Position numbers and translations under genes: made by a program. Source: Candidatus Melainabacteria bacterium (lineage in GTDB: Bacteria > Cyanobacteriota > Vampirovibrionia > LMEP-6097). Taken from it: a DNA stretch of 41,677 bases. Below, piece after piece: positions 3,027-38,336 of the stretch (position 1 is the first letter of the stretch; the number at the start of each line of letters is the position of its first letter). The stretch is from NCBI GenBank assembly GCA_018695135.1, contig JABHOV010000073.1, positions 1 to 41,677 on the forward strand, in the 5' to 3' direction. The notes beneath the pieces are model-generated. The model worked only from the letters and a program-made list of their open reading frames with translations, was not told where the DNA came from and ran no database searches.

Positions 3027-3046
3027 CGTTGGATTTTGACAACGGA
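2954..3046 (-). pseudogene. Remnant of a second AtpZ/AtpI-like C-terminus
   Basis: On the minus strand this stretch reads VVKIQRYVDLVNK and then a charged tail ending KQSKT and a TGA at 2954-2956. The intact AtpZ-like protein nearby has IVKIKRYIDIVNK at 3146-3180, so 9 of 13 residues match and the other four changes are mostly conservative. The two DNA stretches (3011-3045 and 3146-3180) are clearly related. There is no start codon or N-terminal part here. It is best read as the tail of a lost tandem paralogue, or as the original tail displaced by a duplication/insertion of about 100 bases. Confidence 0.55.
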
Positions 3047-3067
3047 CACGCTAAAAACGAAGTTTTT
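3044..3067. repeat. Repeat C, copy 1 (24 bases with a GAA-loop hairpin)
   Basis: These 24 bases (GGACACGCT followed by an AAAAAC-GAA-GTTTTT hairpin) occur again without any mismatch at 5137-5160. The hairpin overlaps the stop codon of the minus-strand AtpZ-like gene (stop at 3066-3068). It lies between convergent genes, where a weak bidirectional terminator role is possible. Confidence 0.8.
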
Positions 3068-3326
3068 AAGTCGGGTCCTTGATATGAGGTTCTGACTCTG
3101 CTGAGTCAGACAAGGCTTGAGATTTTATATTGGGTTGTTGTTTATTGACTATGTCAATATAGCGCTTGATTTTAACAATAGTCAGTATCAAGCCACAAGC
3201 AGCTGCAATTAAAATAGAGTTGACTAAGTAATCACCTTCACGATGATTTTCAAGCCAAGTACCAACGAAGTAACCGATGGCTACAGTTGCGGGGATTACA
3301 TAGGCGATGTCAATTAGTTGTCCCAA
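3066..3326 (-). CDS. AtpZ/AtpI-like small membrane protein
   Basis: This 86-residue protein has two likely membrane helices (about residues 6-23 and 36-53) joined by a short polar loop. Its pattern IGYFVGTWLENHREGD...SILIAAACGLILTIVKIKRYI fits the AtpZ/AtpI family, which helps assemble the ATP synthase c-ring or carries Mg2+/Ca2+ for it. The start is a TTG with GAGGG a few bases upstream, two bases after the stop of the previous small gene. The last 25 residues are hydrophilic and are coded by a perfect 8-bp hairpin (3091-3110) and repeat C, so this tail looks acquired. The family call is moderate because such short proteins are hard to assign. Confidence 0.6.
   Translation of the reverse strand: MGQLIDIAYVIPATVAIGYFVGTWLENHREGDYLVNSILIAAACGLILTIVKIKRYIDIVNKQQPNIKSQALSDSAESEPHIKDPT
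3091..3110. repeat. Perfect hairpin inside the tail of the AtpZ-like gene
   Basis: TCTGACTC at 3091-3098 and GAGTCAGA at 3103-3110 form an 8-bp stem with loop TGCT. It is translated as part of the hydrophilic tail (SDSAES) of the AtpZ-like protein. Confidence 0.6.
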
Positions 3327-4492: not shown

Positions 4493-4538
4493 GAAGTGTT
4501 TGAATTTATCTTGTAAGTGATACTGGTAAAGATAGAGG

Positions 4539-4561
4539 GACTTCCGCAGGAAGTCTAATGA
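4539..4561. repeat. Hairpin sharing the end of repeat A
   Basis: GACTTCC-GCA-GGAAGTC (4539-4555) is a perfect 7-bp hairpin just beyond the stop of the minus-strand DUF4149-like gene. The 17 bases 4545-4561 are identical to 13595-13611, the right end of repeat A in the propeller-like gene. No T-tract follows on the minus strand, so it is not a classical terminator. Confidence 0.55.
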
Positions 4562-5046: not shown

Positions 5047-5136
5047 AAGGTTTAAAACATCCTAACATCAGTTTACCAGAAGCTTTTTCCTCTGCTGTAA
5101 AAACTTGATTTATTGAATATTTATTTAATTCTAAAA

Positions 5137-5160
5137 AGGACACGCTAAAAACGAAGTTTT
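5137..5160. repeat. Repeat C, copy 2
   Basis: This is an exact copy of the 24 bases at 3044-3067, including the AAAAAC-GAA-GTTTTT hairpin. Here it is free of genes. Confidence 0.8.
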
Positions 5161-5352
5161 TCTTGTTAGGGTTGAGACTTTGCATTGTTCAGTGCAGCCT
5201 CAATAGAATATGAGTTTTCACAGACCTTTTGTACGGCGCTCAATCTAGTCTCGCTATAGTTTGAAACAATTATAGGCGTGTTTGACTTGAGTGAGCGAGA
5301 CTTGTTGAGCTGATTCTAAAACAGTGAACTGATAAATGCAAATGGCTTGGGC

Positions 5353-11502: not shown

Positions 11503-12441
11503 ATGTTAAAACAACAAGTTCATTTTGTAGTACTAGGAATGGGAGCTGTAGGAGGTTTTTATGGTTTGCGTTTGGCGAAACATTTGCAAGAACATCCTGG
11601 TGAATTTGGCTTGAGTTTTATTGCACGTGGCAAAACACTTGAGGCTTTGCGTGAAGGAGCTAGCTTGATTGATTGTGATGAAGAGACCAAGTTTACTAGA
11701 CTTAATTGTTTTGGGAGTTTTGGTGATATTGATTTTAAAGCTAATGAGCAAGTCGTAGTTTTGCTTTGTGTGAAATCGAAGGATACGCTTGAGGCAGTAA
11801 ATAGCATTGATCGCAATGACATAGCGGTCATCTCCATCCAAAACGGTGTAGAGAACGAGCAGCGAATTGCTTCAGTGCTTGGTGAAGAGCGGACGATTGG
11901 TGCATTAACAAATATTGCTGCAGAGGCACTAGAGCCAGGTAACTATATTAATAAGGGCAAGTATAGTTTAGTTATTGGAGAGCTTGATGGTTCTTCTAGT
12001 GAGAGGCTTGAGCGAATAATGGAGCTTTTGCGTGCTGCTGGAATTAATACTCGAATCAGTGAGGATATCTACAAAGAGCTTTGGTCCAAACTAGTTTGGA
12101 ATGCAGGTTTTAATCCAACTAGTGTTTTGTATCAAATGACAGTCGGTGAGCTTTTGGCTGATCCAGAAATCAGAGCAATCATTGTGGGCGTGATGCAAGA
12201 AGTTAAACAAGTAGCCCATGCACTTGGCTATGATTTAGCTGATGATCTTGATCAAAAACATATAGCAAGAACGGACACTCCTGAATGGTATAGCTTTAGA
12301 ACTTCAATGCTGCAAGATCACCAGAAAGGCAAAGTTATTGAATTGGATGATTTGCTTGGTGTTGTCGTGCGTAAGGGGCAGGAATTAGGGCTTGGTGTCA
12401 GTGTTTCTAAGAAGCTGTATCAGGATTTACTGTCCTTATAG
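11503..12441 (+). CDS. panE: 2-dehydropantoate 2-reductase (ketopantoate reductase)
   Basis: The 312-residue protein makes pantoate for coenzyme A synthesis, using NADPH. The N-terminal Rossmann motif is VLGMGAVGGFYG (residues 9-20). The central ISIQNGVENE and the catalytic lysine region ELWSKLVWNAGFNPTSVL are typical of PanE, as are the C-terminal helices. The ATG at 11503 has only a weak AGG upstream. Related ketopantoate reductase-like enzymes of unknown substrate exist, but all key PanE motifs are here. The next gene starts 13 bases after the stop. Confidence 0.92.
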   Translation: MLKQQVHFVVLGMGAVGGFYGLRLAKHLQEHPGEFGLSFIARGKTLEALREGASLIDCDEETKFTRLNCFGSFGDIDFKANEQVVVLLCVKSKDTLEAVNSIDRNDIAVISIQNGVENEQRIASVLGEERTIGALTNIAAEALEPGNYINKGKYSLVIGELDGSSSERLERIMELLRAAGINTRISEDIYKELWSKLVWNAGFNPTSVLYQMTVGELLADPEIRAIIVGVMQEVKQVAHALGYDLADDLDQKHIARTDTPEWYSFRTSMLQDHQKGKVIELDDLLGVVVRKGQELGLGVSVSKKLYQDLLSL

Positions 12442-12454
12442 TAGAATAAGCTTA

Positions 12455-14071
12455 GTGCAGATATTAATAGCCATACTACTTATATGCCTCCCTGCTTCAG
12501 CAGCTTTGCCTGAAGCAATAGTCTCTGAGTTTCAACAGCATTATAAAGATGCTAAAGAAAGACCAGATGGTTTGATGCAGGCTGGTAATAAGGATTGGCT
12601 CTTGTTTAAAACTAATAAGCAATCTACAGATTCTGAGATCAAATTAGTTATCAAAGATGGAGACGATCTTTTGTTCTCTGATGAAATTAACGACTGGGTT
12701 TTTACACCGATTAAAGGCAATACAGTCAAGAGTTTTGATTTCTTGCATCCACAAATTCAAGCAAAGATACTATCAACCAATATTGTCCCGACTTTTTTGG
12801 TACCTAGTGGTTTTGAGTTGCCGCGTGATTTAGCTATTACCATGGGACGTTTGCCGCTGAGCTTGAGAACTGTAGAGCTTGCTTCTGATAGAGAGTTGCG
12901 ATTTAGAGAGAGGTTGGCTGAAGAGCAAGCTAGTAAACCGATTGATGCGATTTCGTATTCTGTTAAAACTGGATTGCTCAAGCGTGTTGGCTTTAGTGAT
13001 TTGCCACTTGTGGAAAATCTAGACGAAATGAGTGCAGGCTTAACTTATGTCTCTGAAATCAAAACCATCGATGGTGATTTATACTTGCTTGATTACCATC
13101 AAGCCAAAGTTTTTCAGATTACTAGTCCTGAAACCAAGCATGATTCTTTAAAGCCTAATGAGCAAATATTAATCGAATCAAATTTGGAGATGACAGAATT
13201 GTTTGATCTAACAGACCTTGGTCTGGAAGCTGGCTTGCGCGATTTCCAGATTGAAAAAGAAACTGGAGTCGCATATTTCTTAGATAGTCTTGGGTCTAAT
13301 ATTTTTGTTGTCGATATTAAAGCAAAGAGACTCATTAAGACAATCACTATCCCTGCTGGTTGCTCTGATATGATTAAAGTCTCACGTAGTAGTGCTGAAC
13401 CAGTGCAGATTATGATGCTGTCGAAGTCAAAGTCAAGTTTGTTGAGTATTAATAGTTTTGATTATCGAATGTCTAAGGCTCTTGATTTGAATTTATTAAG
13501 CAGGCATCCTTCAAAACGAAGTTTTGCTAGTGATGTCGACACAAAAAAAGTCGGAACGGTGCAGAGCACTAGTTCCGTTAATAAAGAATACTCTCGCAGG
13601 AAGTCTAATGATAACTTTCGTTATATACCACATGCACTTGCCGTTAATGAATCCAAGATTTTTGTGGCTGTTGAAGCAATTAATGCCAATCCTCAAAAAC
13701 AATTTGCTGTTCAAGGCAAGGTTTTAGTACTTGATGCAGTTACCAGTCAATTGATTGCTTCGATTGATTTAGATTATGTGCCCATCGATCTTTTACTGGC
13801 AAAAGACAATAAGCATGTTTATGCACTTGGCTCAAATCAAGATGCAGCCTTTGTTTCCAACATTGATTTTGAAAAGGCTTATTCGGTTGAAAATGCCAAT
13901 CTTGCTCCTGATATAATTGATCCACAAAATATGGTCTTTGCTAATACTGGCAAGTTTGTGTTGATTTCAAGTTCTGGCACAAACACAATCGCAGTTTTTG
14001 ATCTTGCTACTTGGTCCATGGTTCACAAAATTGATATTGGTGATAGTTCTAGTATTTTGTCGGCCTTATGA
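12455..14071 (+). CDS. Secreted propeller-like protein with an inserted element
   Basis: From a GTG at 12455 the protein has 538 residues and opens with a signal peptide (QILIAILLICLPASAALPEA). The frame extends upstream into panE, but this start places the signal peptide at the N-terminus. The second half has repeated beta-strand units such as YFLDSLGSNIFVVDIKAKRLIKTITIP, IFVAVEAIN...VLVLDAVTSQLIASIDLD and FVLISSSGTNTIAVFDLATWSMV. These resemble YVTN-type beta-propeller blades. The function is unknown, and it is probably periplasmic or surface-exposed. Residues about 351-386 (HPSKRSFASDVDT onward) come from repeat A and match an insert in AroA. They lie between two propeller blades, a place likely to tolerate a loop. 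It overlaps hemW by 4 bases. Confidence 0.75.
   Translation: MQILIAILLICLPASAALPEAIVSEFQQHYKDAKERPDGLMQAGNKDWLLFKTNKQSTDSEIKLVIKDGDDLLFSDEINDWVFTPIKGNTVKSFDFLHPQIQAKILSTNIVPTFLVPSGFELPRDLAITMGRLPLSLRTVELASDRELRFRERLAEEQASKPIDAISYSVKTGLLKRVGFSDLPLVENLDEMSAGLTYVSEIKTIDGDLYLLDYHQAKVFQITSPETKHDSLKPNEQILIESNLEMTELFDLTDLGLEAGLRDFQIEKETGVAYFLDSLGSNIFVVDIKAKRLIKTITIPAGCSDMIKVSRSSAEPVQIMMLSKSKSSLLSINSFDYRMSKALDLNLLSRHPSKRSFASDVDTKKVGTVQSTSSVNKEYSRRKSNDNFRYIPHALAVNESKIFVAVEAINANPQKQFAVQGKVLVLDAVTSQLIASIDLDYVPIDLLLAKDNKHVYALGSNQDAAFVSNIDFEKAYSVENANLAPDIIDPQNMVFANTGKFVLISSSGTNTIAVFDLATWSMVHKIDIGDSSSILSAL
13504..13611 (+). repeat. Repeat A inserted in the propeller-like gene
   Basis: CATCCT leads into the hairpin CAAAAC-GAA-GTTTTG. 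A 20-base block starting TTGCTAGTGATG is identical to the aroA copy. A second hairpin CGGAAC-G-GTGC-AGA-GCAC-TA-GTTCCG follows, and the right end is CGCAGGAAGTCTAATGA. It is read in frame as about 36 residues. The aroA copy is at 21064-21176 on the other strand. Confidence 0.88.
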
Positions 14072-19059: not shown

Positions 19060-19253
19060 GGCTAAAGCCGCGGTTGCGGCATCAAAGATGCCTGGTTGCG
19101 TAAGTCTACGACTTACTGGTTGCGTTCACTTTGTTCACTGCTTGTGGGCTATCATTCTGCAAAACTAGATACACTGCCTTAAGAGGCAGCGAAGCGCAAC
19201 CAGGCATCTTTGATGCCGCAACCGCGAACGTAGTGAGCTCAGTTACCGCAACC
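19060..19253. repeat. Repeat D: GGTTGCG hairpin array with a 32-bp perfect inverted repeat
   Basis: Six copies of GGTTGCG lie here, three on each strand (19072, 19094 and 19118 on +; 19195, 19217 and 19247 on -). They separate small hairpins: GCGGCT-AA-AGCCGC, GCATC-AAA-GATGC, GTAAGTC-TAC-GACTTAC and CTGCCT-TAAG-AGGCAG. Bases 19069-19100 and 19195-19226 are exact reverse complements. It lies between convergent genes and reaches into the 3' end of the cca gene. A terminator role is possible, but there is no T-tract. Confidence 0.9.
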
Positions 19254-20006
19254 AAGCAACTCAAGAGCGCATTCAGCGTTCTTAAGTTGCTTTATTTTCC
19301 CCATTTCAATAGCAAATCTATTCTTTCTCTTTTCCAACCACTCTGGATATTGTGGATCTTTCATGGCTGCTTGCATCCATTCTAGGGTTTGCGGTTCAAT
19401 TTCAAAGTCATACTCAGCAGCGAAGCGCGCAGCTCTATAAATTCTTGTCGGATCATCGATAAAACTATATTTGTGAAAGACCCTGATCAAACCTTTTTGG
19501 ATATCACTCATGCCACCTACATAATCAAGAATTTCTCCAGATGGATGTTTGGCTTTGGGGGGATTGATTGATTCCAGCAGAGCGTTGATAGTAAAATCAC
19601 GTCTTTGAAGATCTTCTTTGATACTGTCGATGATAGTTACTTTGGGGAAGTCGGCTGGTTCGTCATAGGTCTCAGTTCTAGTGCTGGCTAGTTCAATATT
19701 GTAATCTGGTAGATTGTGATCTTTGATTTTGACTGTGCCAAATTGTTTAAACTCTTCTACGACCTCAAAAGTCTCATGATTAGGGTGATTGTCTTGTCTG
19801 TATTTCTGTAGTTTTTGGGTGAATTCGATGGCATTGCAATTAATTACCAAATCCAAGTCATAGCAAGGCTTGAGTTCTTTGCCGCGCAAGTCATGCATTA
19901 ATTGATTACGTACGTAGCCACCAACTAAATATATTTCATGACCTAAGGCAAAGGCTGCTGAGCCAATGTCTTGTAGTAGTGATTCGATTGTGCTACTCGT
20001 TTTCAT
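19239..20006 (-). CDS. cca: CCA-adding tRNA nucleotidyltransferase, shortened
   Basis: The 255-residue protein has the class II nucleotidyltransferase head: YLVGGYVRNQLMHDL (residues 26-40), the metal-binding YDLDLV (49-54) and RRDFTINALL (about 134-143). The neck motif DDPTRIYRAARFAAEYDFEI comes next. It adds or repairs the 3' CCA of tRNAs, or makes related RNA tails. Bacterial members usually run to about 400 or more residues, so most of the body and tail that anchor the tRNA is missing. The last codons (GCGN and stop) lie in repeat D, so the truncation coincides with that element. Its ATG overlaps the aroA stop by 4 bases. Whether the short form is active is open. Confidence 0.85.
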   Translation of the reverse strand: MKTSSTIESLLQDIGSAAFALGHEIYLVGGYVRNQLMHDLRGKELKPCYDLDLVINCNAIEFTQKLQKYRQDNHPNHETFEVVEEFKQFGTVKIKDHNLPDYNIELASTRTETYDEPADFPKVTIIDSIKEDLQRRDFTINALLESINPPKAKHPSGEILDYVGGMSDIQKGLIRVFHKYSFIDDPTRIYRAARFAAEYDFEIEPQTLEWMQAAMKDPQYPEWLEKRKNRFAIEMGKIKQLKNAECALELLGCGN

Positions 20007-21439
20007 AGCCCTTCAATGATATCAAAGAAGTTAGGAAATGAAGTCGCTACAAACTCAGTTTGCAGTATTGTGATTGGCTTAGTTGATTTAAGAGCTGCTA
20101 TCGCAGAACTCATTGCCAACCGATGATCCCCATGCGAATCAATTTGAAGCAAGTCACCAATTTCTTTACCTTGGATAGGCTCAAAATCTCTACCGGCTCT
20201 ACCTTGAATTATCATACCGTCATCAGTTTCTTCAACATCAACACCAAGGATTTTGAGCATATTAATAGTAGTTGCAATTCTATTTGATTCTTTGACTTTA
20301 AGTTCAGCAGCATCCTTGATTATAGTAGTACCTTCTGCTTGAGCCGCTAAAATCGCAATTACAGGAATCTCGTCAATTAATCTTGGGATGATATCACCTT
20401 CTATTGTAGTTGCCTTGATTTTGGAACTGCGCACGATGATATCTGCAATTGGTTCTTTATTTATTTCACGCTTGTTTTCTAGTTGGTAATTTACGTTCAT
20501 TGCTGTTAGTACGTCAAGTATTCCTGTTCTTGTTGGATTGATACCTACATTATTTAGTTTGAGTTTGCAATCATCGAGTATCGCCCCTGCGACTAAGAAA
20601 AATGCGGCGCTGGAGATGTCTCCAGGAATTTCTATAACTTGTCCTGAAAGTTCTTGTCCTGGCTTGAGTGAGACTTCAAGTCCATTAACTTCTAGATCTA
20701 CTCCAAAACCCTGCATCATACGCTCTGTATGATCACGCGATTTTTCTGGTTCAGTTACTATCGTCGTGCCTTGAGCGTTGAGTCCAGCAAGCAGGATAGA
20801 TGATTTGACTTGGGCGGAGGCAATTTTGGACTCATGACTAATTGCTTTTAATCCTAAGCTTGGCTTGATCACAAGAGGAGCTTTACCACCTGGCTGGCTT
20901 TCAATCACGGCACCCATCTTGGTAAGAGGGTCAATCACTCTTGCCATCGGTCTTCCAGACAGTGATTCATCGCCAGTAAGAGTTGTCGAGAAAGGTAAAC
21001 CTGCAAATAAGCCAGCAAGTAATCTCATGCCAGTGCCTGAATTACCTAAGTAAATATCTTCATTAGTATGTTTTTCGTGAGAATTTTGTTCACCTTCATT
21101 AGCGGAACACATGCTTTGCATGGTTCCGACCTCTTGTGTGTCGACATCACTAGCAAGACTTCGCTTTGCAGGATGTCTTGGTGCTTTAAGTCCCGCAAAT
21201 CCTTTGCCTTGGATTTTAACTGTCTTTGCTTCTTTGTTAAAATCAATTTCAACTCCAAGAGCACGGAAGGCATTCATTGTACAAATACAATCCTCACCAG
21301 TAAGAAAGTTACTAACTTCGGTAAGTCCATTAGCTATTGATCCAAATATAATCGAGCGATGTGAAATGGACTTGTCGCCAGGGATATCAATCTGGGCTTG
21401 AACAGCTCTAGTTATTTTACTAATAGTCTCTTGAGCCAT
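20003..21439 (-). CDS. aroA: 3-phosphoshikimate 1-carboxyvinyltransferase (EPSP synthase) with an inserted element
   Basis: The 478-residue enzyme joins phosphoenolpyruvate to shikimate-3-phosphate in aromatic amino acid synthesis. Signature segments are PGDKSISHRSI (20-30), LGNSGTGMRLLAGLFAG (131-147), LTGDESLSGRPM, and further on KVKESNRI and DSHGDHRLAMS. Residues 88-126, between GFAGLKAP and EDIYLGNSGTG, are foreign to the family. They are coded by repeat A and match the insert in the propeller-like gene. Without them the protein is about 439 residues, the normal size. The insert lies in front of the active-site NSGTG segment, in a surface loop between strands. The gene overlaps leuC by one base (TAATG) and cca by four, so the three are probably co-translated. 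Confidence 0.96.
   Translation of the reverse strand: MAQETISKITRAVQAQIDIPGDKSISHRSIIFGSIANGLTEVSNFLTGEDCICTMNAFRALGVEIDFNKEAKTVKIQGKGFAGLKAPRHPAKRSLASDVDTQEVGTMQSMCSANEGEQNSHEKHTNEDIYLGNSGTGMRLLAGLFAGLPFSTTLTGDESLSGRPMARVIDPLTKMGAVIESQPGGKAPLVIKPSLGLKAISHESKIASAQVKSSILLAGLNAQGTTIVTEPEKSRDHTERMMQGFGVDLEVNGLEVSLKPGQELSGQVIEIPGDISSAAFFLVAGAILDDCKLKLNNVGINPTRTGILDVLTAMNVNYQLENKREINKEPIADIIVRSSKIKATTIEGDIIPRLIDEIPVIAILAAQAEGTTIIKDAAELKVKESNRIATTINMLKILGVDVEETDDGMIIQGRAGRDFEPIQGKEIGDLLQIDSHGDHRLAMSSAIAALKSTKPITILQTEFVATSFPNFFDIIEGL
21064..21176 (-). repeat. Repeat A inserted in aroA
   Basis: Read on the minus strand it has the same order of parts as 13504-13611. It starts CATCCTGCAAAGCGAAG, then the shared 20-base block beginning TTGCTAGTGATG, then the hairpin CGGAAC-C-ATGC-AAA-GCAT-GT-GTTCCG. 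It ends near TACTAATGA. The GTGC/GCAC stem of the other copy is ATGC/GCAT here, a paired change. Confidence 0.88.
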
Positions 21440-37217: not shown

Positions 37218-37352
37218 TAGTCTATATATACCCTCAATGTTTATGGCTAACTAAATATTTATGCCTAGCGGGGCGGGACTTATCTTTTGTCAGCTAGGCT
37301 ATTGAAGCTACCGAGGATCTGGCTTTGAGCTTTACTGGTATTATTAGTGCTT

Positions 37353-38336
37353 ATGGCGATACTTGTAACAGGCTGTGCCGGATATGTTGGAGCGATAGCT
37401 TCCAAGCTTCTTCTTGAGGCTGGTTATGAAGTAATTGGTATTGATAATCTTTCAAGAGCCAAGCAGAACAACTTAGTTGATGGGATTGAGTTCTATCAAG
37501 CTTGTATTTCTGATGAGAAGATTTTGGAGACGATAGTAGCAAAGCATAATATAGAAGCTGTTTTGCACTTTGCTGCATTTATTGAGGTGGCTGAGTCAGT
37601 TGAGAAACCAGGTTTATACAAAGAAAATAACTATATAAAGACCACAGTGCTGGTTGATAAATTAATTCAACTTGGAATCAAGAATATGATTTTTTCTAGT
37701 ACCGCGGCTGTTTATGGATTGCCCATTATGGACATTGCTTTGAAAGAAGATGCAGAGCTCAAGCCAATTAATCCTTATGGTGAAAATAAATTAGCCGTTG
37801 AAAGATATTTAGAACTAAAGTCCAAGGAAGAGGATTTTAAATATATAGCTTTGCGTTATTTTAATGTGGCAGGAGCTTATGGTGACTATGGAGAGGCGCA
37901 TGAGCCAGAGAGCCATATCATTCCAATTGCTTTAGATGCTCTTCTAGGACATCGTGAGATTTTTAAATTGTTTGGTAGAGATTACAATACTGCTGATGGT
38001 ACAGCCGTGCGTGATTATGTTCACGTTGTCGATCTTTGTAAGGCACATATTGCTGCACTGGAGCTTTTTAAGTCAGGAAAGGGTATTAATCAAGCATACA
38101 ATCTTGGCTACAACAAGGGCTTTTCAGTATTGCAGATAGTGCGGTCAATAGAGAAAGTAACTGGTCAAGAAATCCCACTAGAATATTCAGACAGGCGTGC
38201 TGGTGATCCAGATCACTTAGTTGCTGATAACACTAAAGCTATTGCTGCTGGGTTTTTCAAGCCAGAGAGAGCTTCCATTGATAGAATAATCGAGGATGCT
38301 TTAAAGCACCGCAAAAAATTCCATGCAAACAGGTAA
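37353..38336 (+). CDS. galE: UDP-glucose 4-epimerase-like protein
   Basis: From ATG 37353 the protein has 327 residues (a GTG two codons earlier is possible). It is a short-chain NAD-dependent sugar epimerase with TGCAGYVGA near the N-terminus, HFAAFIEVAESVEKP, the Ser in FSSTAAVYG and the YGENK catalytic Tyr-Lys pair. RYFNVAGA and RDYVHVVDL are typical of GalE. It likely makes UDP-galactose or another UDP-hexose for the surface glycan built by the following genes. Exact sugar specificity cannot be read from this. It overlaps the flippase by 14 bases. Confidence 0.92.
   Translation: MAILVTGCAGYVGAIASKLLLEAGYEVIGIDNLSRAKQNNLVDGIEFYQACISDEKILETIVAKHNIEAVLHFAAFIEVAESVEKPGLYKENNYIKTTVLVDKLIQLGIKNMIFSSTAAVYGLPIMDIALKEDAELKPINPYGENKLAVERYLELKSKEEDFKYIALRYFNVAGAYGDYGEAHEPESHIIPIALDALLGHREIFKLFGRDYNTADGTAVRDYVHVVDLCKAHIAALELFKSGKGINQAYNLGYNKGFSVLQIVRSIEKVTGQEIPLEYSDRRAGDPDHLVADNTKAIAAGFFKPERASIDRIIEDALKHRKKFHANR

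Follow-up and report, generated by a model that had tools for sequence, protein, structure and literature searches.

A mobile palindromic element lying in frame in unrelated protein genes of a Candidatus Caenarcaniphilales bacterium

Introduction

The palindromic elements of Rickettsia (RPE-1 to -3 and others) and of Wolbachia are the described system closest to the element reported here. They are multicopy, hairpin-forming sequences of 100–150 bp that sit within numerous unrelated core genes, keeping the frame and not destroying the gene (PMC2229807, PMC3767692, PMC4224334, PMC10969869). The target duplication of RPE is listed as unknown (PMC2229807). Coding palindromes have so far been described as a peculiarity of these two bacteria and their movement was left unexplained. 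Among the miniature transposable elements (MITEs), RUP of Streptococcus pneumoniae has a length of about 107–111 bp and is thought to be mobilised by IS630-Spn1 (PMC2229807).

An earlier note on a contig of 41,677 nucleotides, analysed here at its full length and called the window, had proposed that a palindromic element behaving like RPE is read in frame in two unrelated proteins. The window belongs to a 2.05-Mb draft genome (G000) of an uncultured relative of cyanobacteria, a Ca. Caenarcaniphilales bacterium (class Vampirovibrionia, “Melainabacteria”); the nearest named matches of its AroA are from Caenarcaniphilales/Melainabacteria MAGs. The genomes used for comparison, all of them drafts, are those of a sister species (G001), of another member of the same genus (G002) and of a bacterium from another genus of the same family (G004).

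Results and Discussion

Two copies of the element in the window

A covariance model based on 71 copies of the element matches both places singled out in the earlier note, at 13501–13607 of the + strand (106 bits, E 1.6e-24) and at 21067–21179 of the − strand (103 bits, E 9.2e-24). The first lies in a gene coding a propeller-like protein and the second in aroA (Table 1). As had been proposed, both lie in frame, and they share one reading frame (RHPxKRS(F/L)ASDVDT...). The extra segment of AroA, estimated before at about 39 residues, is real and has a length of 38 residues (88–125). It is missing in the G001, G002 and other orthologues aligned, among which there was none from a distant phylum with these residues, the finding that would have spoken against the earlier note. 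The AlphaFold model of AroA has a pLDDT of 88.5 but values below 50 for residues 90–125, which are modelled as a disordered loop between the strands 73–79 and 128–130.

Table 1. Element copies, their hairpins and related features of the window.
Feature	Positions	Strand	Remarks
Element copy 1	13502..13606	+	105 nt, AGAC..GTCT type with a 6-nt in-frame deletion; read as RHPSKRSFASDVDTKKVGTVQSTSSVNKEYSRRKS
Hairpin 1, copy 1	13503..13537	+	GGCATC..CAAAAC-GAA-GTTTTG..GATGTC; fold, covariation, covariance-model alignment
Hairpin 2, copy 1	13552..13577	+	CGGAAC-G-GTGC-AGA-GCAC-TA-GTTCCG; fold, covariation
Host ORF of copy 1, propeller-like protein	12392..14071	+	559 aa; insert starts at residue 371
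Element copy 2, in aroA	21068..21178	-	111 nt, CATGC/GCATG subfamily; RHPAKRSLASDVDTQEVGTMQSMCSANEGEQNSHEKH
Hairpin 1, copy 2	21143..21177	-	Fold, covariation, covariance-model alignment
Hairpin 2, copy 2	21103..21128	-	CGGAACCATGC-AAA-GCATG-T-GTTCCG; fold, covariation, covariance-model alignment
Host gene of copy 2, aroA (EPSP synthase, PF00275)	20003..21439	-	478 aa with insert; Pfam 4e-108
3′-end remnant of the element family	4521..4557	+	Intergenic; 17.5 bits, E 0.039; exact 3′ terminus GCAGGAAGTCTA
NAD-dependent epimerase gene	37347..38336	+	Site near 37548 is empty here and filled by an in-frame element in the G001 orthologue

Anatomy and subfamilies

The unit is AGAC...GTCT with a length of 111 nt, and an alignment of its copies over 113 columns needs hardly any gaps. 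Hairpin 1 (columns 3–37) is followed by an A-rich spacer and by hairpin 2 (columns 52–77), and the 3′ arm of the element is complementary to its 5′ end. Short, without a transposase gene of its own and bounded by the terminal inverted repeats AGAC(A)TCCTGC/GCAGGA(A)GTCT (TIR pairs were counted), the element has the features of a MITE. The stems covary across the family: 93% of the cells are paired and changes on both sides number 91 versus 23.7 in shuffled alignments, with fewer in slid controls. The terminal repeats covary too, more weakly than the stems.

The GTGC/GCAC and ATGC/GCAT stems of the two window copies are as described in the earlier note, which took this paired change as a sign that the structure is selected or needed for mobility. 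The CATGC/GCATG form of hairpin 2 is common to seven copies with linked substitutions. Since the paired change separates two subfamilies, it is a subfamily marker and no proof of repair within one copy. The stem covariation of the whole family is real nonetheless and speaks for the structure, while insertion itself is of the transposase type, with a 3-bp ANT duplication (see below).

A longer composite variant was found at four different sites (L025, L030, L038 and L044), where a similar insert of ~85 nt (TAACATGGTTGTGAAT...GACCCATGTTGGGTCTCTTGAGACCCCC) lies inside hairpin 2. Another repeat family (GGACACGCTAAAAACGAAGTTTTT...), which shares the two-hairpin plan, occurs in the window at 3041–3144 and 5135–5205 (+ strand), as well as at L178 near 10946 and L191 near 4352; it has stops in several frames, and its TIR in G001 is AAGGACACGCTGAAAAA/TTTTTCAGTGTATCCTT. 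The window also has a long, strong inverted repeat separating two gene ends (19064–19231), for which Rfam gave a below-threshold MIR172 match on both strands that is surely spurious.

Copy number and taxonomic range

The earlier note had left room for there being no further copies in the genome; the covariance model counts at least 104 copies for G000 and 139 for G001. The 18-mer GCTAGTGATGTCGACACA, common to both window copies, occurs twice in the window versus 0.01 expected, and 65 times in G000 when up to 3 mismatches are allowed (reversed control: 0). The element is carried by 4 of 382 genomes of the class, all from two genera of one family, and a search of 60 relatives was concordant. The exact core pattern had no match in GTDB contigs or IMG/VR, and the element had none in Rfam. 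Neither the host, a Caenarcaniphilales bacterium, nor this distribution places the element within Rickettsiales.

Target duplication and empty sites

The element underwent a recent burst in G004. All 22 recent, near-identical copies of that genome, 0–2 bases from each other's consensus, are flanked by a 3-bp ANT target duplication; some of those at contig ends are possibly copies of the same site. In a duplication test the 3-bp flanks were identical for 33 of 52 G001 copies, versus 15.5 when shuffled, and for 11 of 11 in G004. A reading of the duplication as NTA was dropped in view of the G004 copies, from which the duplication is ANT and the AGAC...GTCT ends are symmetric.

Comparison of G000 with G001 shows sites that are occupied in one of the two species and empty in the other, in the genes of AroA, the propeller-like protein, PGI, a VTC-domain protein and the epimerase. 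The first four inserts are cleanly missing from the G001 orthologues. The G001 propeller gene, which lacks the insert at 371, has an independent in-frame element of another subfamily after residue 260. Some insertion sites are common to both species and these are thus inherited. A copy found directly upstream of a SpoU methylase gene (L002 766–878, L185 11257–11369) is 99.1% identical between the species while its flanks are 86–91% identical, possibly due to a local function or to gene conversion.

A candidate transposase

Two gene fragments of an IS5-family transposase were found in G004. One, on contig C209, is the N-terminal half with HTH_Tnp_4, into which the element has inserted; the other, a C-terminal fragment with DDE_Tnp_4/IS5, lies where contig C170 ends. 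The match to NF033581 (IS5; 7.8e-13) falls short of its curated threshold, as a fragment would. The sequence ACT-AGATTTTTTGCGAAAG lies upstream of the HTH_Tnp_4 half and CTTTCGCAAATGATCT-AAT downstream of the DDE_Tnp_4 fragment; the right ends of the element are, in reverse, AGACCTTTTGCGAAAG. These ends agree with those of the element at 11–15 of 17 bases, the closest at 13–15 of 17 (shuffle frequency <0.001), for genes that are broken and on two contigs. Within the IS5 family, the ISL2 group inserts at ANT targets. The element copy in the C209 half gene (L241, C209:22–134) lies in an IS5-family transposase gene, presumably that of its own partner IS.

No HTH_Tnp_4/DDE_Tnp_4 transposase of IS5 type was found in the drafts G000, G001 and G002, so that the element may no longer move in these genomes, or the drafts may lack the gene. 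Because the transposase is represented by one half gene on each of two contigs of G004 and by none in the other three genomes, we infer rather than observe the IS5 partnership. The PF01609 transposases of G000, G001 and G004 were discarded as partners, their ends being unrelated (e.g., CTGACATTCCGC and CAGCAATTCTTG), and orphan 3′ ends proved too noisy a path to an autonomous element.

It is very improbable that the repeats were spread by recombination, gene conversion or a REP/RAYT (HUH) transposase, with no DDE transposase involved. The element is hairpin-rich like REPs, and the near identity of the copy upstream of the SpoU methylase gene could be taken for conversion; however, terminal inverted repeats and a degenerate ANT site duplicated cleanly over 3 bp fit DDE transposition, and similar ends of IS5 type adjoin the HTH_Tnp_4 and DDE_Tnp_4 fragments. 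To our knowledge, HUH enzymes produce no such target duplication, and a HUH/REP origin was rejected on this ground.

Residence in frame within genes

The 111-nt unit and the 3-bp duplication add up to 114 nt, or 38 codons, and a full-length insertion consequently never shifts the frame. No stop interrupts the sense frame RHPAKxxFASDVDTKKVGTV... in 97 of 114 copies, and three further frames are often open as well. This sense frame is the one used by 32 of the 36 copies found deep inside ORFs (at least 30 codons on both sides; p about 1e-12); the remaining four are read in other frames, in ORFs some of which may be spurious. The mean hydropathy of the used frame is −0.9 to −1.1, while the other frames are near neutral or hydrophobic (up to +1.2). 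Copies whose length is a multiple of three occupy this frame inside ORFs in 27 of 86 cases, those of other lengths in 1 of 27 (p 0.002), and the sole exception apparently precedes the true start. About 15 copies of G001 subfamily II (e.g., L178 11985–12096) have a common 1-nt deletion and a length of 110 nt. None of these is inside a gene in the usual frame, which makes them a natural control for the frame rule. The same frame is open in a divergent G004 subfamily (RHLAKHRFAVDVARKKVATTPLGGSCAKDNSDFHKRS), and one recent G004 copy lies in frame in a gene read from its sequence as bioF-like.

The hosts recognised by Pfam include glycogen debranching enzyme, PGI, PurL-type, MsrA/SelR, RNase HII, NadC, AroA, ArgJ, TsaE, epimerase, GlyS, UvrD, MgsA and cytidylyltransferase (gene names include aroA, pgi, purL, nadC, tsaE, rnhB, glyS and uvrD), and several are interrupted within a single domain. 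The insert apparently sits harmlessly inside core enzymes such as AroA. It is very improbable that selection has spread the peptide into many proteins as a useful, functional linker or domain. The strong preference for one frame and the presence of the same peptide in many enzymes would fit, but no selection at the peptide level was seen: the synonymous share of the changes in ORF copies is 0.234, versus 0.239 expected, and near that of intergenic copies. Furthermore, the segment is a disordered loop in the AroA model, sister-species orthologues do without it, the hosts have no common trait and many copies are intergenic. The frame bias is probably due to selection against other landings. Least probable of all is removal of the insert before function, either as a very small intron or through skipping by the ribosome as in mitochondrial byps, which would suit its place in conserved enzymes and its strong hairpins but would leave the multiple-of-three length and the open frame kept in ORFs needless, as well as the near absence of copies of other lengths from genes. 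Inteins and group I/II introns known to us are far larger than this element.

Proposed mechanism

The element is multicopy and has terminal inverted repeats, a 3-bp ANT duplication, empty sites in a sister species and a recent burst in a related genus. The suggestion that a mobile palindromic element like RPE lies in frame in unrelated proteins is borne out by its copy number of more than 100, by its target duplications and empty sites and by orthologues free of the insert. We infer that it is a non-autonomous MITE moved by a transposase of the IS5 family (HTH_Tnp_4/DDE_Tnp_4), and we are confident in the joint reading of a mobile MITE, probably mobilised in this way, whose insertion is neutral to the reading frame and whose peptide is tolerated with no evident function of its own. 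The transposase would cut or copy the element in trans by recognising ends of the AGACCTTTTGCGAAAG type. A full-length insertion would add 38 codons with the frame kept and, in sense orientation and one phase, would yield a hydrophilic, disordered peptide (RHPAKxxFASDVDTKKVGTV...). Landing in that phase within a loop may be tolerated, whereas landings elsewhere in a gene would usually be removed by selection; copies could in this way accumulate inside essential enzymes, their peptide acting as a tolerated linker. More tentatively, and as a possibility rather than a probability, the lineage itself may have been selected for compatibility with genes. Its multiple-of-three length plus the 3-bp duplication and its stop-free hydrophilic sense frame would then be kept across divergent subfamilies and in two genera because copies surviving inside genes act as donors, and the transposon would be adapted to coding sequence.

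Comparison with known systems

A few IS5-family insertion sequences (HTH_Tnp_4/DDE_Tnp_4) resemble the element in their ends. A homologue carried by D. ficus pDFI1 lies between AGACCCGTTGCGCA...TGCGCAATCGGTCT ends with a 3-bp duplication; its ends AGACC...GGTCT are like those of the element, as is the right end ...AAGGTCT of the Acaryochloris pMB07 IS. Unlike the element, both encode a transposase, whose identity to the N-terminal fragment of G004 is only about 37%. RUP can be found inside the gene of its presumed partner transposase (PMC2229807), as is the element on G004 contig C209, but it has stops in all frames and its partner family is IS630, not IS5.

Correia/NEMIS (107 bp), ERIC and YPAL/RU-2 are MITEs with ORFs, and Correia, ERIC and YPAL also yield in-frame fusions. 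For this reason the element is classed here as a putatively IS5-type, frame-neutral, coding MITE of Vampirovibrionia. It differs from Correia, ERIC and YPAL in that its ORF insertions share one preferred frame and that many are in core enzymes. Bacterial MITEs are described as mainly intergenic, whereas some 30 of the insertions studied here, from two genomes, are located well within ORFs.

The element works like RPE, to which it is likened by size, by structure and by residence in frame in many unrelated protein genes (one frame for 32 of the 36 copies deep inside ORFs) and not by sequence homology, and we do not claim it as an RPE. It differs from RPE by its occurrence in another phylum, by a defined ANT duplication, empty sites and a recent burst, by a unit that makes exactly 38 codons with its duplication and by a proposed transposase family, so that its mobility is better defined. 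It is a second, apparently unrelated case of a coding palindrome, and its target duplications, empty sites, recent burst and candidate transposase make the mechanism testable. It also suggests a simple rule by which mobile DNA can enlarge essential proteins without death of the host: a length that is divisible by three together with the duplication, and an open frame that is hydrophilic.
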